A DNA stretch of 46,155 nucleotides. Origin: a virus. Shown in pieces: positions 22,079-41,712 of the stretch (its first letter is position 1; the number at the start of each line of letters is the position of its first letter). Both the position numbers and the translations under genes were made by a program. The notes under the pieces were generated by a model. The model saw nothing but the letters and a program-made list of their open reading frames with translations, was not told where the DNA came from and did no database searches. The DNA is taken from IMG/VR virus record IMGVR_UViG_3300009502_000082, positions 1 through 46,155 of that record; one strand, written 5' to 3'.

Positions 22079-22085
22079 CATCCCC

Positions 22086-22114: not shown

Positions 22115-22123
22115 AGACACAAG

Positions 22124-22633
22124 ATGAAAGGAAACTTTAAAACTCGTGAATACAAGAACTGGAAGCGAATAGCTGAGAGTTTACAAAAAGACATTCTCAA
22201 AAATGAAAAGGCTGTAGTATGGTGGCTTGAGAATATACATCTAGTGTACGACCAGACAGTAGAATACCCAGTGAATGAGGTACTTCCACTGTGTGAGAAT
22301 ACAAACAAGCCATATACAAAGCTTAGAGAAGATAACTCGAACCTTAAGGGGCGTATACAAAAGGAAGAGTTGGAACACTTAATTGATAATACTGCTATAG
22401 AGGAGCAGATATATCAAGACTTATACTGGTGGAATATGGGCAAACGCCCTGAGGCGGTACTAAAGATAAAGCTTAAGCCATATATGCTGGCCATACTTAA
22501 AGCTAGATATGTAGATGGAATAAGGTTAACTGAATATGCAAGACAACATAATTATGCAGACAACTATCCTCATCGAGTAATGACAGAAATACGTAGTATG
22601 ATTAAGTATTTTATAAATAGGAGTAATAAATGA
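22124..22633 (+). CDS. Sigma-like / HTH transcription regulator candidate
   Basis: A 169-residue basic protein, first gene of the replication operon. The last 55 residues (KLKPYMLAILKARYVDGIRL, then TEYARQHNYADNYPHRVMTE) look like the region-4 type helix-turn-helix of small sigma factors or phage late regulators. The N-terminal 110 residues are helical with several Trp, and no region 2 is recognised. No ribosome site precedes the ATG, and the promoter -10 ends only nine bases upstream, so the mRNA would be nearly leaderless. No alternative start is available nearby. It overlaps the next gene by ATGA. The HTH call is by eye. Confidence 0.5.
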   Translation: MKGNFKTREYKNWKRIAESLQKDILKNEKAVVWWLENIHLVYDQTVEYPVNEVLPLCENTNKPYTKLREDNSNLKGRIQKEELEHLIDNTAIEEQIYQDLYWWNMGKRPEAVLKIKLKPYMLAILKARYVDGIRLTEYARQHNYADNYPHRVMTEIRSMIKYFINRSNK

Positions 22634-23598: not shown

Positions 23599-23608
23599 AG
23601 GAGTTTAA

Positions 23609-24343
23609 ATGATTAAGACAAGAAAGAGTGAAGACACAAAACAAAAGTTTGCCCGTGTAGTTATAATGGGGGAAGCTGGAAGTGGAAAAACTAGTCTATG
23701 TAAGACGTTGCCAGACTTAAACAAGGTGCTGTACATCAACACAGCAGGGTATGAAGATGGAGACATAGTACTAAGTAATAGTCCAGGAATAACTATTCTA
23801 GATATAGAAACTGTAGGTGATTTTGCAGAGTTAGTAAAAGAATTAAAGTCAGCTAAGTATAAAGATAAAGAGTTCATATTCTTTGACTCACTTACTGGGC
23901 TATCAAGTATGTCACTAAAGTTTTGGGAAAAAAACTACCCTGATAGACGACAAGCAAACATTTGGGATTTGTTTCGTGAGCATGGAGAAGCACTTAGAGA
24001 TATATTTCTACAGCTTAAAGAATTAGATAAACATATATTCTTTACAGCACTTATGAAACAAAGTAATGATAAGGTAGCTAAAGGAATACTAGTACCTAAA
24101 GTAGACGGTAATATGTTTGAAGAAAGCATACGTAACTGGGCAGATGGTACAGTTGCACTTAAGAGTTATGAAGATGGTAGTCGTAAATTACTTTTACATA
24201 ATAATGGCGAGTACGCTTGTAAACTTAGAGTACCTAATGGAGAAAATATTCCACTAATACTTGAGACACCAGAGCATGTTAATTTATCATACTTACTGCA
24301 ACTAATGGGATTTAACTATACTAATAAAAAGGCAGGTGAATAA
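23609..24343 (+). CDS. Sak4-type RecA-like recombinase ATPase
   Basis: A 244-residue RecA-fold ATPase. Walker A is GEAGSGKTS (residues 21-29), Walker B is EFIFFDSLTGLSSMS, and later come FFTALMKQSNDK and a C-terminal beta region ending in ILETPEHVNLSYLLQLMG. The short length (about half of RecA) and order fit Sak4 annealing/exchange proteins. GAGGAG precedes the ATG. The Cas4-like nuclease upstream and DUF669-like protein downstream are frequent partners of Sak4, supporting a resection, annealing and ssDNA-binding set. It ends in a TAATG overlap. Confidence 0.8.
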   Translation: MIKTRKSEDTKQKFARVVIMGEAGSGKTSLCKTLPDLNKVLYINTAGYEDGDIVLSNSPGITILDIETVGDFAELVKELKSAKYKDKEFIFFDSLTGLSSMSLKFWEKNYPDRRQANIWDLFREHGEALRDIFLQLKELDKHIFFTALMKQSNDKVAKGILVPKVDGNMFEESIRNWADGTVALKSYEDGSRKLLLHNNGEYACKLRVPNGENIPLILETPEHVNLSYLLQLMGFNYTNKKAGE

Positions 24344-24840
24344 TGGTTGAACCAATTACAGTTTTAGAACCAATACTATTTGACGACACAGATGCACCAG
24401 AGTACGCACCTAAATTAAAACTACCCGACGGTTTTTATAATGTAATGATAGAACATCTACAGATAGGAAGTAAGAAAGATGCACGTACTATCTGTTTAAC
24501 TTATGTTATACTTGATGGTGATTGGAAAGGTAAAAAGATAATGGACTTTTATAATCCATACTTATCTTCAACAGGTGCGTCTAGATTTAAGTTCCTACTA
24601 CAGATACTTGGGTTTAATAAGTTTGAAATAAAAGAAATAGGAATGAACATTAATGCTTTACTTGAAGTTATAGTAGGATTAAAGATGCGTATAAGAACAC
24701 AGTTTAAAGATGACTTTGTACAAGTATCAGCTAGAATGGTACCAGTAGCACCACACACAAATGGTACAGATATATTAAATAGATTTAAGGAGAAGCAAGC
24801 GTTACTGCAAAAGACAACAACCCCTAAAGGGATGTGGTAA
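24343..24840 (+). CDS. DUF669-like ssDNA-binding partner of Sak4
   Basis: A 165-residue protein. The core (PDGFYNVMIEHLQIGSKKDA, then LTYVILDGDWKGKKIMDFYN) follows the DUF669 pattern of an OB-like sheet, followed by a helical part (FKFLLQILGFNKFEIKEIG). Members sit beside Sak4 and are thought to act as phage single-strand-binding proteins; that function is family knowledge, not visible directly. The C-terminus is basic, without the acidic tip of classical SSB. Coupled on both sides by TAATG overlaps. Confidence 0.65.
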   Translation: MVEPITVLEPILFDDTDAPEYAPKLKLPDGFYNVMIEHLQIGSKKDARTICLTYVILDGDWKGKKIMDFYNPYLSSTGASRFKFLLQILGFNKFEIKEIGMNINALLEVIVGLKMRIRTQFKDDFVQVSARMVPVAPHTNGTDILNRFKEKQALLQKTTTPKGMW

Positions 24841-26750
24841 TGCTCTGTACAACTCTAGAAAACTTTAAGTCACTTACTAGTGGCGAGGACATAGTAGTCC
24901 TTGATATAGAAACTAAAGGTAATAAATACTTTTCATCATCAGACAATACAGCTATTATGGGGATAGGTATCTACTTACCTAAAACTGATGTTGGTATCTA
25001 TGTTCCTGTTAATGAGTATGTTCCAGTAGATGATACTATTGTACGTATTGGCGAGCCAGAATTACTACTAGAAGTAAGAATGTTTCTAGATAACAGTAAA
25101 GTAATATGTCACAACAGCTCATTTGATATAGGGTGGTTAAACTATTGTGGGAGTAGTATTACTCCTTACTGGGATACTCGTATTGCTTGGCAACTACTAA
25201 GTCCTGAGGGCTATAAAGAAACTAGTGCATATAGCTTAGACAAGGCTATAGAGTCTTACTTAAATAAAGAGTCACACAAAGGGGGCTTTGAAGCATATCT
25301 TGCTTCTATAGGAGCCAGTGCTAAAGATGGAGAACACTATAAAGCTGAAACTAAAGTATTAGCTGAGTACTGTATAAAGGATTGTAAAACAACATATGAA
25401 ATATACTCAATACAAAAACCAAAGATAGAGGACTTAAAAGCATATGACTTCATGCATAATTTATTTGATTACCAATCCCTTCTTAACAAACAATATCAAG
25501 AAGGAATATTATTTAATAGCAAAAAAGCTGAAAGTTATAAAAGGTTATTGGAAAGGTACACGAACTATCTCAATAAAAAAATATATAAATTAGCTAAAGT
25601 AGAAATCAGTATTATAGAAAATAAGCATACTATGAAGAAAGCTAATACATTTAAATCAGAGAAAGGTAAGAATAAATTTCTAGCTGATGCTGATAGAAAG
25701 ACAAAGTTTAATCTAAACTCACGTCAACATATGGCAGACTTACTTGAAGAGTTAGATATAAATGTTACTGAACTTACTGGCTCTGGTAAAACTAAAACAG
25801 ATAAGCATACTTTAAATAAGTATAGTAAAGTTAACCCAGTTATAGATGTATTAGTTAAACTAAATAAAACACAGACAGATAGTAGATTTATTACTCAGTA
25901 TATGGAGGCAACTATTAATGGAAGGTACCACCCCGACATGGATATATGTGGCACAGCCAGTGGTAGGCTTACTTGCTTTAAGCCTAACATCCTCGCTGTT
26001 AATCGTCGTGATAAGCGACTTATGCGTTGCTTCTGTGCACCCGACGGATACAAGTTTGTACAGTGGGATTTATCTAACATTGAACCACGTATTGAAGCAC
26101 ACTTTGCAAGGGATAAGGAGTTGGCTGAGATAGTAACAACAGGTAAGGACATCTATTTAGAGTTACTTAAATATATATACCCTGATAAGGTATACCTATA
26201 TAACCCAAACGATTTAGATGGAAGTAAGAAGAGACTTCATACTGAACGTGATATGTTAAAGAAAATAAGACTTGCTATGGGGTATGGTGCTCAACCAAAC
26301 AAAGTAGCACTGATACTTAACATACCACTTAATGAAGCTAGGCGTATATATAATGCATATTGGGGAGCAAGACAAGCTAGTAAAAATCTAGAGAATAGAT
26401 TACTAACATTATATGCTAAGCAAGGTTACATACAGAACATGTGGCAGCGTCCTATTACTATGGCATTTAGTAAAGACATACTTAATCGTTTTGTTCAGTC
26501 AAGTGCACATGATACTTTAATGCAGCTTAACCTAATGCTTGATGCTGAACTGAAGAAACAGAGGATTAAATATCTACCAACTATAATAGACTTTCATGAT
26601 GAGAATATTACTGCAGTTAAAGATGAAGATATAGAAGCATATCTTGCTTGTTTAGCTGATGTGTTTAAAAAATTTAATAACAAACTTAATTTACTAGCAC
26701 CACTTGATTATGACTATAAGATAGTAAGTAACTTCTCGGAGCTTAAATAG
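24840..26750 (+). CDS. Family A DNA polymerase with 3'-5' exonuclease
   Basis: A 636-residue replicative polymerase. ATG 24840 is preferred over GTG 24834 because AAAGGG is better spaced and it gives the TAATG overlap used throughout. Exonuclease motifs: VLDIETKG (D22, E24), CHNSSFDIGWL, and AEYCIKDCKTTYE. Polymerase motif A is DLSNIEPRIEAHF (D410), motif B is KKIRLAMGYGAQPNKVA, motif C is DFHDENI (H586-D587-E588). There is no 5' nuclease domain, as in T7-type phage polymerases, but it lacks the T7 thioredoxin-binding context. It probably copies the genome with the primase encoded next. Confidence 0.93.
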   Translation: MLCTTLENFKSLTSGEDIVVLDIETKGNKYFSSSDNTAIMGIGIYLPKTDVGIYVPVNEYVPVDDTIVRIGEPELLLEVRMFLDNSKVICHNSSFDIGWLNYCGSSITPYWDTRIAWQLLSPEGYKETSAYSLDKAIESYLNKESHKGGFEAYLASIGASAKDGEHYKAETKVLAEYCIKDCKTTYEIYSIQKPKIEDLKAYDFMHNLFDYQSLLNKQYQEGILFNSKKAESYKRLLERYTNYLNKKIYKLAKVEISIIENKHTMKKANTFKSEKGKNKFLADADRKTKFNLNSRQHMADLLEELDINVTELTGSGKTKTDKHTLNKYSKVNPVIDVLVKLNKTQTDSRFITQYMEATINGRYHPDMDICGTASGRLTCFKPNILAVNRRDKRLMRCFCAPDGYKFVQWDLSNIEPRIEAHFARDKELAEIVTTGKDIYLELLKYIYPDKVYLYNPNDLDGSKKRLHTERDMLKKIRLAMGYGAQPNKVALILNIPLNEARRIYNAYWGARQASKNLENRLLTLYAKQGYIQNMWQRPITMAFSKDILNRFVQSSAHDTLMQLNLMLDAELKKQRIKYLPTIIDFHDENITAVKDEDIEAYLACLADVFKKFNNKLNLLAPLDYDYKIVSNFSELK

Positions 26751-27514
26751 TGTATAAATATGTAGGGTGCAAACATATCTATGAAGCACCAATTAAAGTA
26801 ACTACTATAGACAAGGTTCCAGATACAGGCTTCTGTACAGTATATCAGTATGATGAAAGTTTACTTAACTACTTTACTAAACACGGATGTACTAAAGGAT
26901 TTTCTAAAACAAACCCAGTATGTTATACTGATAAGTTATTAGTTGATTTTGATAATCAACTTGAAGCTGCTAGAGATTTCTTTGACACATTAGTAGATAT
27001 GAAGGTAGGATTTAAAGTGTATAATAGTGGTGGACGAAGTATACACTTTCATATAGATAGAGTTCCAGTAGCGTCAGTACATCTACCACATAGTGATAAG
27101 AAGTGGATGGAACAATATGCTTCTAAAGCTGATATGAGTTTGTATCAAGTAGGTAGAGTGTTTAGATTAGAAGGAACAATACACCACGATACTGGTAAAG
27201 CTAAAGTATTAATACAACAAGTAGAAGGAGTACCTCTAGATAGTTTACCTATAGTAGAGCGAGAGCTTACACCGTATACTAATGGTGAAGTTGATTACAA
27301 TAAAGTATTTGATGACCCAATAGTATATCAATCATTTATGGGGTATGGTGCTGGAGAAAGAGAACTTAATATGTTTAAACTTATTACCCACTTAAGAGAG
27401 TATGGAATGAATAGAATATTTATAGAGGAGTTTGTTAAGTGTGCTAATGAAAAATGTCTACCACCTTTAGATGAAGATAGAATAGAATATATATTGGAGT
27501 ATTACTTATCATGA
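26750..27514 (+). CDS. Archaeo-eukaryotic-type primase (AEP / PrimPol-like)
   Basis: A 254-residue protein starting at GTG, overlapping the polymerase stop by one base. The three AEP motifs are visible: DxD in LLVDFDNQ (D66, D68), the SxH-type motif SGGRSIHFHID (S97, H99), and RVFRLEGTIHHDTGK (R139, with H145-D147). C-terminal helices form a cap. It has no zinc or helicase domain, so it is a minimal primase. It probably makes primers for the family A polymerase. A bacterial DnaG-type primase was not found. Confidence 0.75.
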   Translation: MYKYVGCKHIYEAPIKVTTIDKVPDTGFCTVYQYDESLLNYFTKHGCTKGFSKTNPVCYTDKLLVDFDNQLEAARDFFDTLVDMKVGFKVYNSGGRSIHFHIDRVPVASVHLPHSDKKWMEQYASKADMSLYQVGRVFRLEGTIHHDTGKAKVLIQQVEGVPLDSLPIVERELTPYTNGEVDYNKVFDDPIVYQSFMGYGAGERELNMFKLITHLREYGMNRIFIEEFVKCANEKCLPPLDEDRIEYILEYYLS

Positions 27515-28380
27515 TGAAAGCAGGAATGCCTAAACAAACACAAGTTAATAAAGTTCCTATTACTACTTTTAATGTAGTAGGAATAGACGTAGGAAAGTAT
27601 GGTGCAGTATCAGTACTTAATGTAAGAGAAGGTAGGGTAATAGCAGCAAACATATTAGATATCCCACTAGGTCAACGCTCTGGAATAATAGATGGTGAGG
27701 AGTTAACTCTTTGGATATGTGAGAATACCTTTATAAATTATAAGTATCCTACTTATATCTTTATAGAAGAAGTACATGCAATGCCAAAGCAAGGTGTATG
27801 TAGTATGTTTAGTTTTGGTAGAACGTTTGGATATTTAGAATGTCTAGCTGATGAAGTTAAGTTACTGGCTAAGGAACATGATATGTTAGTGGACACTTTT
27901 TTTATAACTCCACAATCCTGGGTTAATGGAATGTGTGGAAAGGATAGAAAAGAAAAAGGTAAACATGTTTACTTAGATAAAGCAGTAGAGTTATTTCCAT
28001 CAATGATAAAGTATTTTACAGGCCCTAAAGGTGGACTTAAAGATGGACGTGTTGATTCACTTCTATTAGCAGAGTTTGGTAGACGTATACTAACTCATGA
28101 AGTAGATTTTTTTTTAACACATTTTCAAAGCAAGGCAAACAGAAACAAAATAAGTCCTCTAAAAAGAAACACAGAAGTAAAAGAAGCAGTAGCTAATATG
28201 TGTAAAGCAGTACACGAGATAGAAGTATTTTTAAGTACTCATCCAGTAGCTAAGGATAAAAAGATTAGAAGAAGATATGCATGCATGATGCAAGCATTAG
28301 CAAAGATGCGACAAAGACTAGGCGAGTATAGAAAGTTATATAAAAGTATAGATAATATATGTATCAAGAGGAGAGTATAA
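27511..28380 (+). CDS. RuvC-like Holliday junction resolvase
   Basis: A 289-residue protein. RNase H-fold acidic residues are in VVGIDVGKYGAV (D26), TYIFIEEVHAM (E86/E87) and KDGRVDSLLLAEFG (D178, D182). FSFGRTFGYLE and ITPQSWVN are conserved in phage RuvC proteins. The last 90 residues are an extra basic helical region (RRRYACMMQALAKMRQRLGE) not found in the 170-residue bacterial RuvC; it may bind DNA. It probably resolves recombination branches before packaging. ATG 27511 overlaps the previous stop; ATG 27514 is an equal choice. Confidence 0.8.
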   Translation: MMKAGMPKQTQVNKVPITTFNVVGIDVGKYGAVSVLNVREGRVIAANILDIPLGQRSGIIDGEELTLWICENTFINYKYPTYIFIEEVHAMPKQGVCSMFSFGRTFGYLECLADEVKLLAKEHDMLVDTFFITPQSWVNGMCGKDRKEKGKHVYLDKAVELFPSMIKYFTGPKGGLKDGRVDSLLLAEFGRRILTHEVDFFLTHFQSKANRNKISPLKRNTEVKEAVANMCKAVHEIEVFLSTHPVAKDKKIRRRYACMMQALAKMRQRLGEYRKLYKSIDNICIKRRV

Positions 28381-28856
28381 TGAATGAATTAAAAGGTAAG
28401 CCACTTAGTATTGAGAATGTACAAGTAAGCTTTATAGATGTACCTAACCATGTATCAGCTACTATATTCTTTAATGGGTGTATAATGAAATGTAGTTACT
28501 GTCATAACCCAAACCTTCATACTTATAAACCAGATAAAGAAACAAGCTTAACAGATATCATCAACACTCTAATTACATATGATGAGCTAATAGATACAGT
28601 GTGCTTAATGGGGGGAGAGCCACTGATGCAGGACAATAAGAAACTAGAGCAGCTTATTGATGAAGTAAGAAAGTTAAAGTTAAGTGTATGCTTATACACA
28701 GCATACGAAAAGGAGGAGGTACCAAGTAGTATATTAGATAAAATAGACATGCTTAAAACAGGTAAGTTTATCCCTGAGTTAAACGCAGGTGGATTTCTAG
28801 CGTCAAGTAATCAAAACTATTACACAAAGGAGAAAGGGGAATGGATAAAGTGGTAG
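28380..28856 (+). CDS. nrdG: Anaerobic ribonucleotide reductase activase (radical SAM)
   Basis: A 158-residue protein. I use ATG 28380, with GAGGAG upstream and a TAATG overlap, rather than the in-frame ATG at 28359. The radical-SAM cluster is CIMKCSYCHNP (C34, C38, C41, the CX3CX2C form), followed by MGGEPLMQ, the GGEP SAM-binding motif. NrdG uses a 4Fe-4S cluster and S-adenosylmethionine to make the glycyl radical on NrdD. The nrdD gene follows with a 16-base overlap, so the two are made together. Enzymes of this type work only without oxygen. Confidence 0.93.
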   Translation: MNELKGKPLSIENVQVSFIDVPNHVSATIFFNGCIMKCSYCHNPNLHTYKPDKETSLTDIINTLITYDELIDTVCLMGGEPLMQDNKKLEQLIDEVRKLKLSVCLYTAYEKEEVPSSILDKIDMLKTGKFIPELNAGGFLASSNQNYYTKEKGEWIKW

Positions 28857-30688
28857 AAGTAAAGACACGTAACGTAGCATTTTTAACAGAAGCACAGAGA
28901 TTTAGAAGGGAAATGTTTTATAAAACAACAGATGGTTTAACAGAAGATAAGGTAGATGGATTAAAATACTATGATAAGTTTATAGGAACAGCAGTAACAA
29001 GTCATCAGACCATAGACGATAATGCAAATGTAGTAGATACTTCCGTTATAAGTTACTATAGTGAAGCACCAAAAGCAATGTTTAAGAAAGCAGCTTATGA
29101 TTACATTCGTAATCAAATTGGAGTACAACACTATACCGCTATTAAAGAAGGTAACTTATATGTTTGTGACTTAACACGTTGGTTTAGTAGTTACTGTTAT
29201 AGTTATAGTTTACAACCACTGGTTTTTGAAGGAATGCCTTTTATTGTAGGGCTTAAAGTAAAACCCCCAAAACACGCTCAGTCATTTATTGATATACTAA
29301 TACAGACAACAGCATACATTAGCAACTCTCAAGCAGGTGCAGTAAGTTATGGAGATTTATTTATATACTTAGACTGGTACTTAAGAAATGATTATGGAGT
29401 TAATTATTATGCAGAAGCTACTGAAGAAGTAGAGCAATTATTTCAGAAGTTAGTATACAGCTTTAACTTTCCATTTCGTGCCAGTCAATCAGCATTTGTT
29501 AACTTAACCATATATGATAAATACTTTATGAAAGATTTATTTAGTCATGTTACATATCCTGATGGTAGTAAGGTAGACTTAAAAGGCGTTAATAAACTAC
29601 AGCAATGGTTTAGCGAGCACTTTATAAAAATGAATGAAACTGAACAGTTACTTACTTTTCCAGTGTTAACTGCTTCTATGTACAAAAAGGAAGATAAGAT
29701 ACAAGATGAGGAGTTTCTTAATTGGTTGTCTGAAGTCAATTATAAACGTGGAACATTCAACATCTATACTGGGGATATTGGAAATCTTAGTAGTTGTTGT
29801 CGTCTTATTAGTGACACCAAATTATTTTCTTCTACTCTTGGCAACCCTTCTATTTCTGTTGGCAGCACTCGTGTCGTAGTACTTAATCTAGTAATGGCAG
29901 CACTTGAAGCTAGAGATGATGTAGATTTTTTTAATAAATTAAAACATACTTATGATTTAGCTGTAGATATATTAGTAGCTCACAGGCGTATGCTAGAGGT
30001 AGCTGTATCAGCAGGAAAACATCCATTATATAGTAAAGGTTGGGCTTCACTTGATAGACAATTCTGTACTATAGGATTTGTAGGACTTAATGAAGCAATA
30101 GAAGTATTAGGTTCAGATATAGTAACTAAAGAAGGTACTGAGTTAGCTGCAAAAATACTTAATACTATAAATAAATGGAATACTGATACACATACTTTTA
30201 CTAAAGTTATGTTTAATCTAGAACAAGTACCTGCTGAATCATTAGGAGTTACTTTAGCGAACAAAACCAACTTTAAGTTTAATACTAAGTATGAAATATT
30301 AAGTAATCAATATCTTCCTCTTTCAGTTAACGCAGATATAAAAGACAGAATAAAAGTACAAGGTAAATTAGATAAACTTACTCAAGGAGGAGGGATACTC
30401 CATATTAATTTAGATGAAACACTTACATCAGCTAAACAGATGAAAAGACTTATAGAATATAGTGCTAAACAAGGAGTTATTTACCAAGCAATTAACTATG
30501 GTATATCAAGATGTACTAAGTGTGGTGAAAATGTTGTAGGAATATTTAAAACTAGTCCTTGTTGTGATGCACAAGTTGAGATATGGGAACGTATTGTTGG
30601 TTATCTACGTCCTCGTAGTGTATGGGGGAAGGCTAGACAAAAAGAAGCAGGACAAAGAAAAAGGTATAAACAAAATGAAGTGGATTGA
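28841..30688 (+). CDS. nrdD: Anaerobic ribonucleoside-triphosphate reductase
   Basis: A 615-residue class III reductase, close to T4 NrdD (605), turning NTPs into dNTPs. The thiyl-radical Cys lies in GNLSSCCRLISDT (C319/C320). The C-terminal glycyl-radical loop is ERIVGYLRPRSVWGK, with the radical Gly at 587. The usual motif has a small residue after GYL, whereas here it is Arg. The structural zinc site is also unusual: C558 and C561 are normal, but the second pair is adjacent (C574, C575) instead of CxxC. There is no N-terminal ATP-cone, so allosteric activity control is likely reduced, as in T4. AAAGGAG precedes the start. Confidence 0.93.
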   Translation: MDKVVEVKTRNVAFLTEAQRFRREMFYKTTDGLTEDKVDGLKYYDKFIGTAVTSHQTIDDNANVVDTSVISYYSEAPKAMFKKAAYDYIRNQIGVQHYTAIKEGNLYVCDLTRWFSSYCYSYSLQPLVFEGMPFIVGLKVKPPKHAQSFIDILIQTTAYISNSQAGAVSYGDLFIYLDWYLRNDYGVNYYAEATEEVEQLFQKLVYSFNFPFRASQSAFVNLTIYDKYFMKDLFSHVTYPDGSKVDLKGVNKLQQWFSEHFIKMNETEQLLTFPVLTASMYKKEDKIQDEEFLNWLSEVNYKRGTFNIYTGDIGNLSSCCRLISDTKLFSSTLGNPSISVGSTRVVVLNLVMAALEARDDVDFFNKLKHTYDLAVDILVAHRRMLEVAVSAGKHPLYSKGWASLDRQFCTIGFVGLNEAIEVLGSDIVTKEGTELAAKILNTINKWNTDTHTFTKVMFNLEQVPAESLGVTLANKTNFKFNTKYEILSNQYLPLSVNADIKDRIKVQGKLDKLTQGGGILHINLDETLTSAKQMKRLIEYSAKQGVIYQAINYGISRCTKCGENVVGIFKTSPCCDAQVEIWERIVGYLRPRSVWGKARQKEAGQRKRYKQNEVD

Positions 30689-30728
30689 TTTAAATAGAAA
30701 AGATACTTAAGCATAGAGAGGTAAAGGA

Positions 30729-30983
30729 ATGAAGTGGATACAACGTAATACTTACTGTCCTAAGTGTGATAAGCTATTCATTGGCTCTCTAGTTAGAGAA
30801 GATACTATGATATACAAGTGTAGAGAGTGTGGTACTGAATGTGATGTGCTTGAACCAGTAGGAGTATCATCATCAACAGTAAGTAAGGTAAACCAACAGA
30901 GCAGAAGCTATAAGTTTGGTAGACACATTGATGATGTCAAGCGGAGTAAGTATGAATATATAGATAAGGTTAAAAAAAGATGA
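30729..30983 (+). CDS. Small zinc-ribbon protein
   Basis: An 84-residue protein with AAGGA upstream. Two Cys pairs, CPKC (residues 10-13) and CREC (32-35) plus C39, make a probable zinc ribbon. The C-terminal half is basic and helical. It is coupled to the following HNH gene by an ATGA overlap. Such ribbons usually bind nucleic acid or protein; the target is unknown. Confidence 0.6.
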   Translation: MKWIQRNTYCPKCDKLFIGSLVREDTMIYKCRECGTECDVLEPVGVSSSTVSKVNQQSRSYKFGRHIDDVKRSKYEYIDKVKKR

Positions 30984-31360
30984 TTAAGGAGCCTAGAAAA
31001 GCCATTGGCAGGGGCTTTCGCTGTCCGTGCTGTGGTAAGATAACTATATTAGTGAAGAAACGTAGGGGTAAGATGTGCCATGCGTGTAGAATGAAGCTTA
31101 ATCCACCTAGATTAGGCACAGGTGAGGGTTGGCATACTAATGATGAAGGATACTTAGTAATGTGGATAGAGGGTAAAGAAGTACGTCAGCATAGATTAGT
31201 AATGGAGCAGCATCTTGGTAGGAAGTTAACTAAGTTAGAGGTAGTACATCATATAGATAATGATAAACTTAATAATAATATAGATAACTTGAAGTTGTAT
31301 GCTACTACTGCTGAACATACTAGATATCACAAGCTAAAAAAGAAGCCCTTGACAAAGTAA
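30980..31360 (+). CDS. HNH endonuclease (HNH_3 type)
   Basis: A 126-residue protein. The N-terminal zinc ribbon is CPCCGK with CHAC. The nuclease part is EVRQHRLVMEQHLGRKLTKL, then EVVHHIDNDKLNNNIDNLKL, with HH, DN and N residues of the HNH active site. This is the compact form common in phage homing nucleases. It is preceded by a zinc-ribbon gene and followed by a promoter whose -35 lies in its last codons. It may be mobile or may cut host or competitor DNA. Confidence 0.85.
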   Translation: MIKEPRKAIGRGFRCPCCGKITILVKKRRGKMCHACRMKLNPPRLGTGEGWHTNDEGYLVMWIEGKEVRQHRLVMEQHLGRKLTKLEVVHHIDNDKLNNNIDNLKLYATTAEHTRYHKLKKKPLTK

Positions 31361-31377
31361 TTGAAGTGTGTTATTAT
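31349..31377 (+). promoter_or_regulatory. Sigma70/sigmaA-type promoter before the small-gene cluster
   Basis: TTGACA (31349-31354), 17-base spacer ending TGTGT, TATTAT (31372-31377). Predicted start is near 31384, sixteen bases before the ATG at 31400, with GGAGGA between. The -35 overlaps the end of the HNH gene. It should drive genes from 31400 through the ClpP-like gene. Confidence 0.75.
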
Positions 31378-31399
31378 ATAAACAATGGAGGAAAGTAAA

Positions 31400-31555
31400 A
31401 TGCCATTTAAAAGTAAGAAACAAAGTGCTGCTGCATTTTCAGGAGCATTGGGTAGTAAGATGAAGAAGGCTGCACCAGAGTGGGCTAGTAAAACTAACTA
31501 CAAAAAGCTACCAGTAAAAGTAGCAACTAAAAAAAACAGGGGGAAAACTAAATGA
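31400..31555 (+). CDS. 51-residue lysine-rich protein
   Basis: GGAGG lies just before the ATG, directly downstream of the promoter. The product starts MPFKSKKQSAAAFSGALGSK and is about one quarter Lys. An opening MPFKSxxQ is common in tiny phage proteins of unknown role. It could bind nucleic acid through its charge. It is coupled to the next 18-codon frame by ATGA. Confidence 0.65.
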   Translation: MPFKSKKQSAAAFSGALGSKMKKAAPEWASKTNYKKLPVKVATKKNRGKTK

Positions 31556-31608
31556 AAGCAAAACCAGTAAAGAAGCCAGCAAAAAAATCTACAAAGAAAG
31601 GTTGCTAG
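31552..31608 (+). CDS. 18-residue basic peptide (possible)
   Basis: A reading frame MKAKPVKKPAKKSTKKGC begins in an ATGA overlap with the preceding gene and ends two bases before the next ATG. Its repeated PAKK-like composition matches the tail of the previous protein. It may be a real coupled peptide or the remnant of a longer protein split by a stop. Low certainty. Confidence 0.35.
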   Translation: MKAKPVKKPAKKSTKKGC

Positions 31609-31609
31609 T

Positions 31610-31813
31610 ATGCCAGTATACCTTTATAGTTGTCCTACTTGTAATGTAGAGCTAGAAGTTATACGTAGTATAGAGGAATTGGATAACCCATTCCTCTGTC
31701 CTACTTGTAAAGTACAGATGAAGCGAGTACCTACTACTTCTTCCTTTAGATTAAAGGGGCAAGGGTGGACGGGTAAAGACATTAAGGAACAGAATGAAGG
31801 GAGTAAACATTAA
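31610..31813 (+). CDS. FmdB-type zinc-ribbon protein
   Basis: A 67-residue protein. It begins MPVYLYSCPTCNVELEVIRS and has CPTCKVQMKRV, giving the CxxC-x18-CxxC ribbon of FmdB-family regulators, followed by a Thr/Ser-rich tail and GQGWTGKD. The family is widespread in bacteria and phages, with poorly known function; a nucleic-acid or regulatory role is assumed. Its stop overlaps the next ATG (TAATG). Confidence 0.75.
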   Translation: MPVYLYSCPTCNVELEVIRSIEELDNPFLCPTCKVQMKRVPTTSSFRLKGQGWTGKDIKEQNEGSKH

Positions 31814-32133
31814 TGATAACTATTAGTAAGTTAGTAAATAGTGTAAGGAAGGCAAATAGAAGTATACATAAACTTAAGAAGCAGACTAGAAAACTTCTTA
31901 ATGGTTGTATGTGGTTTGATATAGTAGATAAGGATATTAAATACAGATATAGTTTTGAACTACAGACTCCCTTTAGATGGGCATATGAAAAGCGTGATGA
32001 AAGGGAAGATATTACTATTCAACAGTTTACAGATGCACTAGAAGTATACACAACTGAACTACTCATGGTTAAAATGGAAGAGCAAGAAGCTAGAGAATGG
32101 TTACTAAATTATATTAAAGGAGTAAAGAAATGA
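31813..32133 (+). CDS. Hypothetical protein
   Basis: A 106-residue protein, mostly charged helix (RKANRSIHKLKKQTRKLL at the start) with an aromatic stretch YRYSFELQTPFRWAYEKR in the middle. It is coupled on both sides by start-stop overlaps within the 31400-33253 operon. No family was recognised. Confidence 0.55.
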   Translation: MITISKLVNSVRKANRSIHKLKKQTRKLLNGCMWFDIVDKDIKYRYSFELQTPFRWAYEKRDEREDITIQQFTDALEVYTTELLMVKMEEQEAREWLLNYIKGVKK

Positions 32134-32357
32134 AAACTAAAAGTGTAGAAGAACAAGTGAAGGAGATAAAGGAAAAGTTAGTTGAACATACTACTGAAGA
32201 TGATGATGCTATACTAATTAGTATGGAGTTAAGTAATTTTGATAATGGCATACCAGTTGTATGTCCAGACTGTGGTAGAGAATACTATGATTTTGAATGT
32301 ACAGTTGAAGCAATAGATGGAGAAGTAATAGTAACTAATGGGAGGTTCATAGAATGA
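32130..32357 (+). CDS. Small protein with a single zinc-type Cys pair
   Basis: A 75-residue acidic protein. The N-terminal helix SVEEQVKEIKEKLVEHT is followed by VVCPDCGREYYDFEC, a possible half zinc knuckle. ATGA overlaps link it to both neighbours. Function not recognised. Confidence 0.55.
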   Translation: MKTKSVEEQVKEIKEKLVEHTTEDDDAILISMELSNFDNGIPVVCPDCGREYYDFECTVEAIDGEVIVTNGRFIE

Positions 32358-32752
32358 AAACAATAGCAGAAAGAAAAAAGTTTCAACCTAAAATAAAACC
32401 AGTACTAATTGTAACAAAGGATAAAGTAGTAGAAGTCCCCATAGTAACCACAAAAGAAGATACGTCCTTTATATATAAGGCTCCTAAAACCTGTAATGTT
32501 ATAAGTGATAGTATGGCATACTTAGTGTATGGTGACAGTGTGCTGATAGAAGTACATACTGAGAGCACTCCTAAAGCGTATGGAGAAGCTATCATACTAG
32601 CTAACCCACAAGTGATGGTTAAGGATAGTCTTATACCAGTTACCCACATTGCACCAACGGCAGAAACATTTAAGATAAGAGTTATTAACTTTAATAAAGC
32701 ACCTAAAAGAATAAGTAAAGGACAAGTTGTAGCAACAGCATTATTTCTATAG
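32354..32752 (+). CDS. dUTPase-fold-like protein
   Basis: A 132-residue beta-rich protein. Its end, FKIRVINFNKAPKRISKGQV then VATALFL, follows the last strands of trimeric dUTPase-like proteins (motif near the kGqriAqlv element). The catalytic motifs 1 and 3 are not obvious, so enzymatic activity is doubtful. A dUTPase or dCTP deaminase-like role would fit next to nucleotide metabolism genes, but a purely structural or regulatory use of the fold is equally possible. Coupled by ATGA to the previous gene. Confidence 0.4.
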   Translation: MKTIAERKKFQPKIKPVLIVTKDKVVEVPIVTTKEDTSFIYKAPKTCNVISDSMAYLVYGDSVLIEVHTESTPKAYGEAIILANPQVMVKDSLIPVTHIAPTAETFKIRVINFNKAPKRISKGQVVATALFL

Positions 32753-32761
32753 AGGTAACAT

Positions 32762-33253
32762 ATGCAGCAGTTCACTTTTGCGTCAGAAGTAGATAATAAG
32801 TTTGGCGAGTTTGATGCTATTATGAATCAGTTAGAAAAGATAGGTGAACCTATAAGACTACACATTAGTAGTGATGGTGGGGACATAGGTGCAGGACTTG
32901 CTTTCTCTGGTAGAGTAAGATTATGTAAGGTTCCAATAACAACAGTTGCCTTTGGACACGTATGTTCAGAGGCAGTTGCTATGTTTGTGTGTGGGGATAA
33001 GCGACACATGGAAAAAGACGCATGGCTAATGATACATGAAAGTCAACTACAGGTGACTGATGAAATGGATATGTCAGAAATGGAAGATTGGATTAAACAA
33101 GTACGTAAGTTTGATGAACAGTACTATAGAATACTAGCAGACAATAGTAAAAAGTCTGTGACATTTTGGCGTAAATTAATTAAGGGTAAACCTGAAGTGT
33201 GGTTAACTGCTGCCCAAGCATTAGAGTTAGGACTGTGTGATAAAATAATATAG
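32762..33253 (+). CDS. ClpP-like serine protease
   Basis: A 163-residue protein. RLHISSDGGDIGAGLAFSGR forms the oxyanion region, the nucleophile is probably S69 in GHVCSEAVAMF, and the His is H92 in WLMIHES. The end TAAQALELGLCDKII is the typical ClpP finish. The catalytic Asp that usually precedes this end appears to be Glu or displaced (GKPEVWL). It is last in the rightward replication operon, about 28 kb from the capsid gene, so it is not an obvious prohead protease. It may cut host or phage regulators. GAGG lies upstream of the ATG, and a terminator hairpin follows at once. Confidence 0.75.
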   Translation: MQQFTFASEVDNKFGEFDAIMNQLEKIGEPIRLHISSDGGDIGAGLAFSGRVRLCKVPITTVAFGHVCSEAVAMFVCGDKRHMEKDAWLMIHESQLQVTDEMDMSEMEDWIKQVRKFDEQYYRILADNSKKSVTFWRKLIKGKPEVWLTAAQALELGLCDKII

Positions 33254-33254
33254 C

Positions 33255-33288
33255 CTTGTAACAAAAAGGTATACTTATTTGTTACAAG
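33255..33288. terminator. Bidirectional terminator between convergent operons
   Basis: CTTGTAACAAA (33255-33265) and TTTGTTACAAG (33278-33288) form a perfect 11-bp stem with a 12-base loop. It fills the whole gap between the ClpP stop and the stop of the opposing phosphoesterase gene. The symmetry and position suit termination from both sides, although the stem is AT-rich and lacks a long T-run. Confidence 0.7.
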
Positions 33289-33783
33289 TTATTTGTTATA
33301 TTGTGCCAGTATTTCTTCTATACTTACTGGATAAAACCTATTATTCTCAACACATACATTAAATCTATTAAGTTTAGTATCGGTAGGAGTTTCTCTATGG
33401 GTATGCCCATGTAAGTGAATACTACCATATGCCATATGAGGCCAACTTAACATAGGATAGTGACACAGTACTAGTAAATATCTATCATAGTGTACAACTA
33501 ATATACTATCACTTAAGAATGGAAGTATCTTTAAGTTCTTCTTATCGTGATTACCTTTAAGTAATATCTTCTTTCCCTTTAACCTATCATAACAAGTCTT
33601 AATAAAGTGTGAGTTACCAAACCCAAAGTCACCTAAGTGATATACAGTATCACCTTCCTGTATTTTACTATTCCATTTACGGATTATATCTTCATTCATT
33701 TCTACTACATCACTATACTCACGTTGACAATAACCTATTATGTTACTGTGTCCAAAGTGAGTATCACTTGTAAACCATATCAT
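33289..33783 (-). CDS. Calcineurin-like metallophosphoesterase
   Basis: A 164-residue protein. I choose ATG 33783 because it makes the ATGA overlap used by neighbours; ATG 33798 would add five residues. Metal-binding motifs appear in order: FTSDTHFGH, HLGDFGFGN, LKGNHDKK, LCHYPM and LHGHTHRE, all five blocks of the family. The substrate could be a nucleic acid end, a cyclic nucleotide or a phosphoprotein; phage members are mostly uncharacterised. It is the last gene of the leftward operon. Confidence 0.85.
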   Translation of the reverse strand: MIWFTSDTHFGHSNIIGYCQREYSDVVEMNEDIIRKWNSKIQEGDTVYHLGDFGFGNSHFIKTCYDRLKGKKILLKGNHDKKNLKILPFLSDSILVVHYDRYLLVLCHYPMLSWPHMAYGSIHLHGHTHRETPTDTKLNRFNVCVENNRFYPVSIEEILAQYNK

Positions 33784-34067
33784 ATTATTAGTATCCATCC
33801 TTTCGTTATTCCTTTAGTATTAACAGGTTCAAGATTGAGTAAGTATGCAGCAACACTACTTTGTATATTATGTTTACTTAAGTAAGGGTAATCCTTTTTA
33901 AACTCTTTATGTAATATATTATGTAGTTTAGTAGCATCTTTAGGATTAATAAATACCCTACTAGGATTACAACTAGTTAAGTTATCTACCGTTGTTATTA
34001 AGTTATTATCTTTATAAAGTAAACTTAAGTTTTTAAACCATTTTGCTTTCCATTTAATTATTTTCAT
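33780..34067 (-). CDS. Hypothetical basic protein
   Basis: A 95-residue lysine-rich protein beginning MKIIKWKAKWFKNLSLLYKD. Start and stop both overlap neighbours by ATGA. The middle (INPKDATKLHNILHKEFK) is helical. No known domain was recognised. Confidence 0.55.
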   Translation of the reverse strand: MKIIKWKAKWFKNLSLLYKDNNLITTVDNLTSCNPSRVFINPKDATKLHNILHKEFKKDYPYLSKHNIQSSVAAYLLNLEPVNTKGITKGWILII

Positions 34068-37084: not shown

Positions 37085-37360
37085 CTATTCCTCCTCATAT
37101 AACTTACAAAGTATTTCACCTTCTCTAAGTATGGTAAGGGTATCTTCTCCTACTGAAATATCTATACCAGTATTCTTAGTAATAAGTAATACTTCTCCAG
37201 CTATTATGTCATGTATATCTTTACCACAAGTGATAACAGTAGCCTTAATAAAGTTATTACTTCTGATAGTATCAGGTATAATGATACCACCACTAGTAGT
37301 CTTACTCTCCACTTCCTTCTTTACTAATACCCTGTCTAATAAAACCTTTGCTTTCATCAT
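37085..37360 (-). CDS. groES: GroES-type co-chaperonin (cpn10)
   Basis: A 91-residue protein with the complete GroES outline. LLDRVLVKKEV opens the barrel, KTTSGGIIIPDTI (residues 20-32) is the mobile loop that binds GroEL with its IIIP hydrophobic tripeptide, and AGEVLLITKNTGIDI plus EDTLTILREGEILCKL close it. Length is close to the bacterial 95-97 residues. There is no GroEL gene here, so it would cap the host chaperonin. In T4, gp31 does this to fold the coat protein; by analogy this one may help the phage capsid, which is inference. A GAGAGG lies upstream. Confidence 0.9.
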   Translation of the reverse strand: MMKAKVLLDRVLVKKEVESKTTSGGIIIPDTIRSNNFIKATVITCGKDIHDIIAGEVLLITKNTGIDISVGEDTLTILREGEILCKLYEEE

Positions 37361-38328: not shown

Positions 38329-38523
38329 TTATGCACCTCCATAGAACTGTTCCTCACTAGGCTTACTTATGTATACTCCTGTAACATAGCTTGGTTGTCC
38401 TTGTACTTGACTATATTGTAGGCATACTTCCCATTTATCTTTTTCATCTACAAGTAATGCAGTTGGTAAAGGAATAGTATAGTGTTCGCATTCAAAGATA
38501 TTAGTTGGCTTATCTTTACTCAT
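38329..38523 (-). CDS. Hypothetical protein
   Basis: A 64-residue protein. ATG 38523, one base after the amidotransferase stop, is preferred over an upstream GTG inside that gene. It has a beta-rich pattern (HYTIPLPTALLVDEKDKWEV, then YVTGVYISKPSEEQF). It is co-transcribed with the amidoligase/amidotransferase pair, so it could be a third component. Nothing else is recognisable. Confidence 0.55.
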   Translation of the reverse strand: MSKDKPTNIFECEHYTIPLPTALLVDEKDKWEVCLQYSQVQGQPSYVTGVYISKPSEEQFYGGA

Positions 38524-38524
38524 A

Positions 38525-39733
38525 CTACTTACCGTCCCAAATAGACTTACCACCTACTATTTTAAGCGGTACTTTCTTTACGATAGGTACTTCATTATCT
38601 CTACTAAATAGCATACCACTTATACTATACCCTGCACGTATGTACTTAGCCCAGCACTCACCACACATCTCAGCCTTGCCCCAGCCTTCATCACACGCTA
38701 TAAAAGTTAAGTCCTGTATAAATCTAGGACTACCACAAATTGTACAGTCACTACTTAAGTTTCTTTTTATTTCTTTCTCTGCTTCTTTAGCTTCTTCTTT
38801 CTTTTCAGCAACACTAGCTTCAGCTTCTATAGCTTTTAATTCTTTATCTATTACTGAGTTAGTATAGCGTTTAGTATTAGTATCCCATACTGTGTTAGCA
38901 TAAGGGTGAAACACTCCATGAAAATAATAACCATAAGGACTTTTCTCATAGTCATAATCACTTTCACAGTATCCTCCTCTATCCTCTTCATCATCTCTAA
39001 AGTTATAAATGCTATCACCATGCCTACCAGTTCCTGTCTTAGTAGTAGTATAAGTTTCACCACAACAAGTAGTACCAGCTTTAAATCTACCGTTAAGTCC
39101 TATTAACTTAGTAGAGTATATCTTTAGTGTATCTATATCTATAGTCAACTTAGTATCAGTAGGTACGTCTTTTACTTTAGCTTGCTTTCCAAATACCGTA
39201 AACAAATCATCACCATTAGAGGAGTAGTATAGTACACCATTAGACTCAACTATACTTAATTGCCCATCGTGTTTAAGTAAGTTAAACTCTTTAGGTTTTT
39301 TACTATCAACATATGCAAGACAATAGTATCCCCACAATTCATTTAACTTATCAATCCCAGTGTTAAGTAAGTAGAATATATATTGGCTATCTACTTTATA
39401 GTCTACACCATGCTTTTCTTTTAACTCTTTGGTATTATTAATCATACCATTATGAGTTCCAGTTATAGTACCTACAATAAACGGGTGGGCATTTTCATCT
39501 TTAAGTTTACTACCATGAGTACCAAGTCTAGTATGCCCCATAATATACTGTGTCTTATCTAGAAAGTAATCTCTGTGGTCACGTAAGAAGTCTTTAGCAT
39601 CTACTGCTTCCTTAAGTAACTTCTTACCATTGTAAAATCCAGTGGCATCTGTTCCTCTACTCATGTTCAGTAGTGCAAGTAACCTTATATCATTAGGACT
39701 ATACTTACCTACTGCTCCAAATATCCCACACAT
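38525..39733 (-). CDS. Class-II glutamine amidotransferase with C-terminal zinc site
   Basis: A 402-residue Ntn-hydrolase. After removal of Met1 the nucleophile is Cys2 in MCGIFGAVG. The catalytic set follows GlmS-type amidotransferases: MGHTRLGTHGS (R69), ENAHPF (H83), GTHNGMINN (N95, G96) and DSQYIF (D115). All are present, so it should hydrolyse glutamine or a related amide. It lacks the sugar-isomerase half of GlmS and the QueC-type partner of DNA-modifying fusions. Instead residues 220-400 hold a charged coiled coil (about 295-325) and five Cys (C330, C333, C347, C357, C360), probably a zinc site. It is adjacent to the amidoligase, 62 bases apart. AAAGGAGG lies upstream. Confidence 0.88.
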   Translation of the reverse strand: MCGIFGAVGKYSPNDIRLLALLNMSRGTDATGFYNGKKLLKEAVDAKDFLRDHRDYFLDKTQYIMGHTRLGTHGSKLKDENAHPFIVGTITGTHNGMINNTKELKEKHGVDYKVDSQYIFYLLNTGIDKLNELWGYYCLAYVDSKKPKEFNLLKHDGQLSIVESNGVLYYSSNGDDLFTVFGKQAKVKDVPTDTKLTIDIDTLKIYSTKLIGLNGRFKAGTTCCGETYTTTKTGTGRHGDSIYNFRDDEEDRGGYCESDYDYEKSPYGYYFHGVFHPYANTVWDTNTKRYTNSVIDKELKAIEAEASVAEKKEEAKEAEKEIKRNLSSDCTICGSPRFIQDLTFIACDEGWGKAEMCGECWAKYIRAGYSISGMLFSRDNEVPIVKKVPLKIVGGKSIWDGK

Positions 39734-39795
39734 TATTCTATAATACCTCCTTTAGTATTTCTAATTCTTTTACTGTACTTAGTGAAAGCTTTAGT

Positions 39796-41589
39796 TTAAT
39801 TATTATCATCATCATTATCATACCCATCATCTTCTTCATCTATATCTTCTATCTCTACTGGTTCCTTTTCTACTTCTACTTTTATATGCTGTACATTATA
39901 ACTTGGTACAACTATATCATAAAACTTTTTAATCTGTGCAGCATAAAAGTTAGCTACGTCTTTGTTACTAAACTTTGCTACTAATTCTAGGAACTTACTT
40001 AACCTATTCTTTAATGAGTTAGCTGAAGTAATACTTAGAGTAGCTTCATCTATTGCTTCTATAGAAGTAGTCTTTACCCAGTCAACAAAGCAAGTCATTA
40101 GACTTATCCAATTAACTATTTCATCATAGTCAAGAGTACCATGATGCTGCCTCATTTCTATACTACCACGATAAAACCAACTGTGTACATTAAGCCAGTT
40201 ATAACGTTCACCACTATACTTTTCTTTCTTTCTTCTAGCTGCATCTTCACCACCGTGTCCATATAGTATCATCTCTACGCCATGTATATCTTTAAGTTTA
40301 GCATACCTATCACTTAATAATACACAGTGTCTACAACTACTACGTTCAGGCTTAACAAGACAAAAGAATAAATTCTGTAGTGGACAAGCTGCTCGATATA
40401 ACTTTATTATATCTTCAATAGTTAAGTCACTACCATCAACATGAACATGAAGTCCACATACTTTATCCATCTCTCTTACTATAACTTTATCTACTGTTGC
40501 ATCTATCTCACTTAGAAACTTTTTTATATCAGCAAAACCTAAATCACCATTAAGTTTTGGACTAACAAACTCTCTAGCTGCAATGCTAGCATCATTAACT
40601 TTACTCCAGTCAGTGTTGTTATCTCTTGTTAAGATATTAGTTTCTATCTCAACACCAAAGATACGCTTACTTTTACACTCAGTATAAGTGTTACCAAGCT
40701 TTACTACTTTAGTAGTAAGCCCAGTCCTACTCCCATATAAGCGTTTTCTTACATCACATCTAGGGCAAAGTCTTCCACCATCTGTTGTAACTTCTCTGCC
40801 GTTCTCTATTAGACAGCCACAACTATAGCAACTAGTAAACTTTAGTTTAACACAGGTATCACATATTAACTTATTAACTGCATCATTACCTAAGTCAACA
40901 TTAACTTTTCGTGATTTAACTAATCCATTTTTTTCATATACACCACAGTACTCACACTTTTTATAGTATATTTTTATACAGTCAGGACAAACTAAACCAT
41001 CTTTAGTCTGATTAGAATTGTTAGATGTAAAGGAATTGTTACAGTGTATACAAGTATACTTTATCTTTTTAGAAGCACACTCTGAACACATACATACTGT
41101 TGTATCTTTATCAAATACAAAGAAAGGTTTACCTGATACTTTACTACTACATTCACTACACGTATACGTTTTGTTAAGTGCAATTTGTAGTATCCCACTA
41201 AATAACCTTAGTAGTGTTTCTTTATCTTTATCACTACAATTAGTGTTAGTTAAATACTTATCAAACTCTATTGCTAGTTTAGTTGATACTTCTATATCTA
41301 AGCACCAAGATTTAACAAGTTGTTTATTTATTTTATTTCTACAGTTTATTTGGGTAGACATAGCATAATATAAATGCTCTGTTAATCTAGGTAAGATAGT
41401 ATACAAGATGTTTTCTAATTGCTCTGCTTGCTTCTTCTTATTATCTGTACTAGTATAAGCCACTAGTATTTCTTTACAAGTACTTACTTCTAGTTCAGGC
41501 AATATCTTGTTTAACTTATCTGCTTCTATATTTGGGTTAGCATCTAACTTACCAAGTATTTTAGCAGCAAGAAAAGTTAATCCGTACAT
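39796..41589 (-). CDS. Putative amidoligase (Amidoligase_2, GS-like fold) with zinc-ribbon array
   Basis: A 597-residue protein. Residues 1-140 are helical. Residues 144-278 hold eight CxxC pairs (from YTCSEC to LCPRC), a run of zinc ribbons. The catalytic half has the Amidoligase_2 signature: FGVEIET (311-317), REFVSP (339-344), CGLHVHVD (378-385), YNWLNVHSW (463-471) and SIEMRQHHGTLD (476-487), followed by the helix IVNWISLMTCFVDW. The tail is strongly acidic (EDDGYDNDDDNN). The family has the glutamine-synthetase-like fold and is predicted to join carboxyl and amino groups using ATP; experimental proof is scarce. The amidotransferase downstream suggests a paired pathway. The GGAGG site is 15 bases from the ATG and can be hidden by an RNA structure. 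Confidence 0.82.
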   Translation of the reverse strand: MYGLTFLAAKILGKLDANPNIEADKLNKILPELEVSTCKEILVAYTSTDNKKKQAEQLENILYTILPRLTEHLYYAMSTQINCRNKINKQLVKSWCLDIEVSTKLAIEFDKYLTNTNCSDKDKETLLRLFSGILQIALNKTYTCSECSSKVSGKPFFVFDKDTTVCMCSECASKKIKYTCIHCNNSFTSNNSNQTKDGLVCPDCIKIYYKKCEYCGVYEKNGLVKSRKVNVDLGNDAVNKLICDTCVKLKFTSCYSCGCLIENGREVTTDGGRLCPRCDVRKRLYGSRTGLTTKVVKLGNTYTECKSKRIFGVEIETNILTRDNNTDWSKVNDASIAAREFVSPKLNGDLGFADIKKFLSEIDATVDKVIVREMDKVCGLHVHVDGSDLTIEDIIKLYRAACPLQNLFFCLVKPERSSCRHCVLLSDRYAKLKDIHGVEMILYGHGGEDAARRKKEKYSGERYNWLNVHSWFYRGSIEMRQHHGTLDYDEIVNWISLMTCFVDWVKTTSIEAIDEATLSITSANSLKNRLSKFLELVAKFSNKDVANFYAAQIKKFYDIVVPSYNVQHIKVEVEKEPVEIEDIDEEDDGYDNDDDNN

Positions 41590-41604: not shown

Positions 41605-41678
41605 CCTCCAGTTTATTATTAGATAGGAGGTATGGAGTAGCAAAGAAAAGAGGTAATAAACCTTGCTACCCCAGTACC
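41605..41678 (-). promoter_or_regulatory. Structured RNA leader of the amidoligase gene
   Basis: On the minus-strand transcript, GGGGTAGCAA pairs with TTGCTACTCC (10 bp, positions 41672-41663 with 41643-41634), extended by GGTA/TACC (41678-41675 with 41632-41629). One pair is G-U, which forms only on the minus-strand RNA. Just downstream, CCTCC (41630-41626) can pair with the ribosome site GGAGG (41609-41605) but shares bases with the outer GGTA/TACC stem, so the two folds exclude each other. This resembles a translational switch. No known riboswitch class was recognised. Confidence 0.45.
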
Positions 41679-41712
41679 TTTATGAAAATTATGTAGTACT
41701 TAGTTGCTTACT

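Follow-up and report, generated by a model that had tools for sequence, protein, structure and literature searches.

A predicted phage amidoligase with LIM-like cysteine fingers and its co-inherited glutamine amidotransferase: a candidate amide-forming complex

The IMG/VR record IMGVR_UViG_3300009502_000082, a virus sequence of 46,155 bases taken here in full (referred to hereafter as the window), carries on its minus strand a gene for a predicted amidoligase (AL, 597 residues) and, after a gap of 62 bases, a gene for a class-II glutamine amidotransferase (GAT, 402 residues), which is followed directly by an open reading frame (ORF) of 64 residues. The families and folds of the two proteins, their intact putative active-site positions, their co-inheritance and the place of AL in a branch that we call the zinc clade are supported by sequence, structure model and tree. 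The interpretation that we cautiously favour is that AL and GAT work in the cytoplasm as a complex that forms an amide at the expense of glutamine and docks by way of its LIM-like fingers. Both of the larger ORFs were confirmed at the coordinates given here, with the regions on which the argument draws:

39796..41589, minus strand: AL, Amidoligase_2 protein of 597 residues (Pfam; glutamine-synthetase-like predicted fold; zinc clade, support 100/99).
41179..41589, minus strand: N-terminal part of AL, residues 1-137, mostly helical at low confidence (AlphaFold2 model, predicted local distance difference test (pLDDT) of ~33-68 by block).
40735..41178, minus strand: finger region of AL, residues 138-285, with eight CxxC (an alignment of 15 sequences, the window included, has 12 invariant cysteines; LIM-like by profile and model matches).
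39985..40671, minus strand: catalytic domain of AL, about residues 307-535 (boundaries from a hidden Markov model; residues invariant over 41 rows).
38525..39733, minus strand: GAT, class-II (N-terminal nucleophile, Ntn) glutamine amidotransferase of 402 residues (Pfam GATase_6; GlmS glutaminase match).
39125..39733, minus strand: catalytic domain of GAT, about residues 1-203, with C2, R26, H67, R69, H83, H94, N95, G96 and D115 (nine positions conserved in 52/52 relatives checked).
38654..38746, minus strand: CxxC...CxxC in the GAT tail, residues 330-360, a possible single zinc finger (model pLDDT <50; likeness to AL fingers not above shuffles).
38329..38523, minus strand: 64-residue ORF directly after GAT, from ATG at 38523 to the stop at 38329 (membership of the module not supported).

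AL belongs to Amidoligase_2 (PF12224; E 4.5e-19, 69.7 bits against a Pfam cut-off of 22), a family matched once in the window record and in none of 14 control genomes. The motifs FGVEIET, CGLHVHVD and SIEMRQHHGTLD lie at residues 311, 378 and 476, respectively. Over 41 aligned rows E314, E316, D333, E340, H381, H383, R416, N467, E478, R480 and H482 were invariant, and these acidic, histidine, arginine and asparagine positions are taken as the putative active site. The AlphaFold2 model of AL had a mean pLDDT of 70.4, with values of at least 85 in 16 of the 26 ten-residue blocks of residues 301-560. Its best match in the PDB was YbdK (Z 14.5, rmsd 3.6 over 234 residues), followed by a plant glutamate-cysteine ligase (Z 13.2), the Pup deamidase/depupylase Dop (Z 11.6) and many glutamine synthetases (Z about 11); the rows listed in this comparison are uninformative on the finger region. 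By sequence, an AL profile gave no match to solved structures at E up to 1. The catalytic domain is predicted to adopt a glutamine-synthetase-like fold, and we consider it very probable that AL is an active ligase.

GAT was recognised as a GATase_6 protein (E 5.8e-12, 46.2 bits against a Pfam cut-off of 27), a family with matches in 14/14 control genomes. GlmS glutaminase was matched by the GAT domain in fold and by a 17-row GAT profile in sequence (best E 6.3e-24). C2, R69, H83, N95 and D115 are intact, G96 is also present, and the positions equivalent to residues of GlmS-type glutaminases are conserved. A preliminary description of this DNA had proposed a glutamine-synthetase-like ligase beside an Ntn amidotransferase, and the predicted fold of AL and the GlmS match of GAT bear it out. 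The outcome that it had named as contrary to its proposal, a lack of any glutamine-synthetase-like site in 39796-41589, did not occur, the model of that gene matching YbdK, glutamate-cysteine ligase, Dop and glutamine synthetases. The motifs, residues, eight CxxC pairs and 62-base gap that it listed are all present.

The partnership of the two genes was assessed in a first viral AL set (the best 80 of 247 loci), a second set (the best 80 of at least 434) and a GAT-anchored set (the best 80 of 100). Besides the locus of a near-identical contig (the twin, described below), the first set held 79 loci; GAT was found in 21, in every case on the same strand and within 400 bases of AL. The second set gave 76 new loci with GAT accompanying AL in 49, 48 of them on the same strand at 400 bases or less, while loci on genome contigs had GAT in 13/64, some of these matches being short and weak. 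In the GAT-anchored set, whose query came from the zinc lineage and which is not representative of all phage GATs, AL was present in 78/80 loci; the remaining two contigs extend only 209 and 1,189 bases beyond the GAT ORF on its upstream side. A collection of 50,697 phage records searched at 1e-5 yielded 35 records matching AL and 280 matching GAT, with Arthrobacter accounting for 14 in each.

For a comparison of ALs with and without fingers, a finger-bearing AL was defined by four or more CxxC ahead of the domain and a finger-bearing GAT tail by two CxxC, thresholds that were fixed after the CxxC table had been viewed. Among unique ALs of AL-anchored loci that extend 2.5 kb to either side, GAT lay within 1.5 kb of 31/31 finger-bearing ALs as against 21/95 others; this count left out ALs with shorter flanks, locus L211 among them. 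Addition of the GAT-anchored loci, the window and the phage loci raised the figures to 72/72 and 30/106, a count that is partly circular. The results support the view that AL and GAT are a genuine, co-inherited gene partnership. The preliminary description had proposed looking for co-occurrence in other phages and had named a lack of it beyond chance as a second contrary outcome, which did not occur either (31/31 finger-bearing ALs with GAT; 78/80 GAT-anchored loci with AL).

We think that the ligase and the glutaminase probably act in one reaction path. That GAT is instead an amide hydrolase, an eraser that undoes the work of AL, or that the two serve separate pathways and are merely adjacent, strikes us as improbable. 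Such readings would be suited by the many ALs that stand alone, 58/79 loci of the first viral set having no GAT in the fetched stretch, which suggests that AL does not depend on ammonia from GAT and can work with other amines; Dop, a fold neighbour of AL, is moreover itself a deamidase/depupylase. Against them, GAT conserves the GlmS-type glutaminase residues and was near each of the 31 finger-bearing ALs with enough flank. The solitary ALs do weigh against the complex that we favour: since they are common, AL has no general need of a dedicated glutaminase, and other amines may serve elsewhere.

The fingers of AL comprise eight CxxC pairs in residues 144-278, and a ninth pair lies within the catalytic domain; nine pairs were reached in 0/10,000 shuffles of AL. 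The invariant cysteines of the 15 aligned finger regions belong to a homologous six-CxxC array. A profile of these 15 rows retrieved LIM proteins from the PDB (CRP1, 7.9e-6; FHL2, 3.9e-5; PINCH, 4.5e-5) with other zinc proteins ranking below them, although the cysteine bias of such a search is high, and the AL model matched LMO2, also a LIM protein, at E 0.05. Pfam LIM (PF00412) had no match in the window AL, and the best LIM scorer among the AL proteins scanned, clade member L081, reached 17.6 bits, below the cut-off of 22.9. We call the AL fingers LIM-like, not LIM, because of the cysteine bias, the other zinc proteins in the list and the Pfam LIM scores below cut-off; the region would be expected to bind zinc. 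The "zinc ribbons" of the preliminary description need correction here, as both profile and model matches resemble LIM-type fingers instead.

GAT has two CxxC pairs, at residues 330 and 357. Two pairs were reached by 169/10,000 shuffles, and the GAT cysteine cluster is by itself only mildly unusual. Across loci, the CxxC units of GAT tails resembled a profile of AL units more than did the remaining CxxC units there: 27/60 GAT-tail units beat all 20 of their own shuffles (2.9 expected) against 18/135 other units (6.4 expected), and the median scores were 12.4 and 3.9 bits, respectively. Single-unit tests of GAT tails agreed for L148, L174 and Ab22, shuffles being as good in 4/500, 2/500 and 14/500 cases, respectively, but not for the window (below).

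A quick tree of the AL catalytic domain without the fingers (95 of 113 representatives) placed the window among 27 representatives that group together with support 98. In a more careful tree of 50 rows, which were picked after the quick tree had been viewed and from which its longest outside branches were left out, the window fell inside the 20-row zinc clade (support 100/99). Other members include the triad ligases described below, L148 (a virus contig), L174 (an Omnitrophica metagenome-assembled genome (MAG) contig), L175 (an Elusimicrobia MAG contig) and a Manatee Spring phage. The GAT tree contains a matching group of 27 rows, unstarred at 87/92, that also includes L010 and L154. CxxC arrays were scored in 96 unique pairs, 100 minus 4 with truncated AL: both proteins had them in 57, neither in 36, AL only in 2 (L175 and L008) and GAT only in 1 (L010), which puts a CxxC tail on 57/59 GATs paired with a finger-bearing AL. 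These patterns support the view that the extra cysteine regions were inherited as a mark of the zinc clade. Judged from the sequences collected, the finger-bearing branch occurs in numerous uncultivated phages, in which a second ligase frequently joins it. Independent co-evolution of the fingers was considered and rejected; Fisher tests gave p values of 7e-6, 0.002 and 0.10 with GATs clustered at 70, 50 and 40%, and the trees show mostly one origin.

A separate observation concerns L211 (617-3112, on a Syntrophomonadaceae MAG contig), a short stretch in which two ALs stand in tandem, eight CxxC being present on one of them, and in which no GAT was seen. The quick tree gives its finger-bearing AL a long branch apart from the zinc clade, which may represent a second gain of fingers.

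The second ligase appears in a triad, AL1-GAT-AL2, found in 41 unique loci and the only arrangement seen where two ALs and a GAT occur together. All three triad proteins carry fingers. In the quick tree all 20 triad ligases fell in one starred group (99), and the ligase was therefore duplicated inside the zinc clade; ligases that follow GAT formed one group (88) and those that precede it two groups with one single row beside them. A dead paralogue was rejected, as both ligases conserve all 12 putative active-site positions checked, in 39/39 complete AL1 and 37/37 complete AL2. In 49 of the 56 loci examined, an ORF of about 100 residues (41 distinct sequences; for example L112:5072-5587) lies between GAT and the AL after it. 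This protein had no match in PHROGs and none above cut-off in Pfam. Its profile matched none of the window ORFs of at least 50 residues, and no second Amidoligase_2 gene was found in the window record, which may in both respects be a fragment.

In the complex that we favour, AL would bind ATP and a carboxylate in its glutamine-synthetase-type site and activate the carboxylate, and GAT would hydrolyse glutamine and pass ammonia to AL or to an AL partner, giving an amide product. The tandem AL fingers and the finger or fingers in the GAT tail of most relatives with a finger-bearing AL would be docking modules, tying the enzymes to each other and/or to a target macromolecule of the cytoplasm, likeliest a host or phage protein. 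The AL1-GAT-AL2 relatives would widen the same logic to a two-step modification. There is a reasonably good chance that the fingers dock partners or target; a protein is the single likeliest target, a choice that we make only tentatively. It is doubtful, in our view, that the fingers are purely structural or oligomerisation elements with no part in target choice. Their presence on both partners, and on all three in the triads, would suit contacts between subunits, and no target was found; finger-less pairs also exist (the 21/95 above), so that fingers are not required for the gene pairing.

A different substrate would be a cytoplasmic cell-wall precursor, for instance the free carboxylate of a stem peptide, which the pair would amidate or tag and so alter the wall against superinfecting phages or lysins. 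We regard this as unlikely, though precedents can be cited. Wall-amidating glutaminase-ligase pairs such as MurT-GatD exist. A wall role has been attributed to the phiEco32 amidoligase and GATase in PMC10580990, citing Iyer 2009, and to the phiEco32 amidoligase in PMC11318856. Among the scanned neighbours of the pair in the window, however, there was no wall enzyme, those recognised being an SNF2-type helicase and a GroES-like gene, and it is hard to see what fingers of a protein-binding type would do on a small wall precursor.

A further reading is modification of DNA or a nucleotide by the pair, with the fingers binding DNA. Genes for an exonuclease-like protein, a RusA-like resolvase and a pyrimidine-dimer glycosylase-like protein recur around the 56 loci. 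A helicase gene precedes the pair in two Arthrobacter phages, and one of these has an exonuclease gene before the pair too. Such a location would suit any early gene, however, and no base-modification enzyme was recognised among the subset of window ORFs scanned. LIM domains, moreover, mostly bind proteins. We hold a DNA or nucleotide substrate to be improbable.

Several further observations weigh against a finger-docked complex. The GAT finger of the window itself was no better than chance against the AL-finger profile (138/500 shuffles as good or better), and beyond residue 214 the GAT model has pLDDT mostly <50, the finger at 330-360 included, which leaves the fold of the tail unsupported. 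Among 10 further zinc-clade relatives one row is gapped at E314 and E316, and the zinc-clade rows L138 and L149 have no fingers. The fingers of the two partners do not always go together: in L008 and L175 a finger-bearing AL is paired with a GAT tail without CxxC, the LUZ24-type phage Ab22 (L010) shows the reverse, and at L010 the gene trees disagree, its AL being far from the zinc clade while its GAT is in the 27-row group. On the GAT tree AL fingers and GAT fingers change three times each, so that their co-variation reflects mostly shared ancestry and is not independent evidence; a test on independent pairs had too few pairs.

A finger-bearing branch and a duplicated ligase with every checked active-site position intact point to a large, targeted substrate, and if that target is a protein the pair would represent a new phage takeover chemistry. 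It is conceivable, but on our estimate quite unlikely, that zinc-finger-docked ligases with a dedicated glutaminase are a phage protein-tagging relay, two-step where there are two ligases and a counterpart of Pup ligation in logic. Just as speculative is the extension that such a relay is spread over a large, still uncultivated phage group, of which the window would be the minimal, one-ligase form. Amidoligase and amidotransferase genes are annotated in many phages, and the parts of the literature available to our searches gave no experimental function for them. As far as these searches tell, the zinc clade and the two-ligase triads are undescribed in that literature; Iyer et al. 2009, known to us via citing papers, may mention fingers.

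Other candidates for membership of the module were set aside. The 64-residue gene at 38329-38523, which the preliminary description had thought might be part of it, has no Pfam match and no relative in the fetched loci except in the same virus, and the triads carry a different small gene; it was dropped as substrate or partner. The twin, contig IMGVR_UViG_3300025162_000007 (G001, 62,819 bases), has an S-adenosylmethionine decarboxylase-like gene (L012:13712-14062, equal to G001 59711-60061; AdoMet_dc E 4.3e-20). AdoMet_dc was found only in the twin among 8 records (the twin and seven with zinc-clade modules), and a polyamine link was abandoned. Gamma-glutamylcyclotransferase is not an obligatory partner either, with 0 matches in the twin and matches in 4/8 records.

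The twin is identical to the window at 15,627/15,628 positions compared, starting from window base 46155. That base and base 1 of the twin are a common terminus of two records of unequal length and so point to a true genome end or a shared assembly break. Single-protein searches gave no close relatives except this near-identical contig, and a DNA search of window positions 22000-34000 against phage records gave no match. Just 5' of the AL gene on the minus strand is a hairpin at 41625-41712 (18 pairs, -24.8 kcal/mol, z -4.2, 0/200 shuffles as stable) that is missing from the output of a simple terminator scan and is possibly an RNA processing or regulatory element. Elsewhere the window encodes an anaerobic ribonucleotide reductase large subunit with an adjoining radical-SAM gene (28359-30688), which are a pointer to an anaerobic host, a ClpP-like protease (32762-33253) and a GroES-like co-chaperonin (37085-37360).

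The pairing of AL with GAT is itself already known from LUZ24-type, Arthrobacter and OM43 phages. The LUZ24-like phage UFV-P2 has, side by side in a single region, genes for a PF14395 ligase, Amidoligase_2, GATase_6, ATP-grasp and a GGCT-like protein (PMC3890496), phage tf is stated to encode an amidoligase as well as a glutamine amidotransferase (PMC3517423), and OM43 phages have both genes, for which wall modification against superinfection was suggested, citing Iyer 2009 (PMC10580990). Like the window, the LUZ24-type module has AL and then GAT on one strand, 12 bases apart in Ab22, where the GAT tail has a CxxC pair. In contrast, it includes three further ligase or GGCT-like genes, and its AL is without the CxxC array. 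GGACT gave 0 matches in the twin (62.8 kb, a record that may be a fragment) while 9/14 controls matched, and PF14395 matched 0/5 records in a search whose controls also gave no match. The Laroyevirus-type pair of the Arthrobacter phages Ottawa and Wheelbite likewise has AL and then GAT, about 80-115 bases apart and after a helicase gene, but neither protein has CxxC, and Ottawa has a GGACT gene upstream.

The Manatee Spring phages MW202637 and MW202789 have a long AL of the zinc clade with a cysteine-rich N-terminal part, followed by GAT; they differ in a GAT tail without a CxxC pair and in an AL only 26.7% identical over the matched part. No named phage record came close, all matching records being below 60% identity (79, 334 and 65 records). 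Triad AL2 reached 80% coverage only in two Manatee Spring records, at 25% identity, and the 15 best rows for triad GAT were at 27-32% identity. A GAT relative is also present in the E. coli phages Bas86 and Bas87. The IMG/VR triads share with the window the AL clade, a homologous finger region and CxxC in the GAT tail; two paralogous ligases and the extra small gene between GAT and AL2 set them apart, neither being seen in the window.

Among characterised enzymes, YbdK, glutamate-cysteine ligase, Dop and the glutamine synthetases have a predicted fold in common with the AL catalytic domain at 8-16% identity. With regard to PafA/Dop, the Z score of Dop is level with those of glutamine synthetases, and YbdK is nearer to AL. 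The glutaminase domain of GlmS shares fold and catalytic residues with the GAT domain, but the match is restricted to that part, and where GlmS has its isomerase part GAT has the tail with two CxxC.

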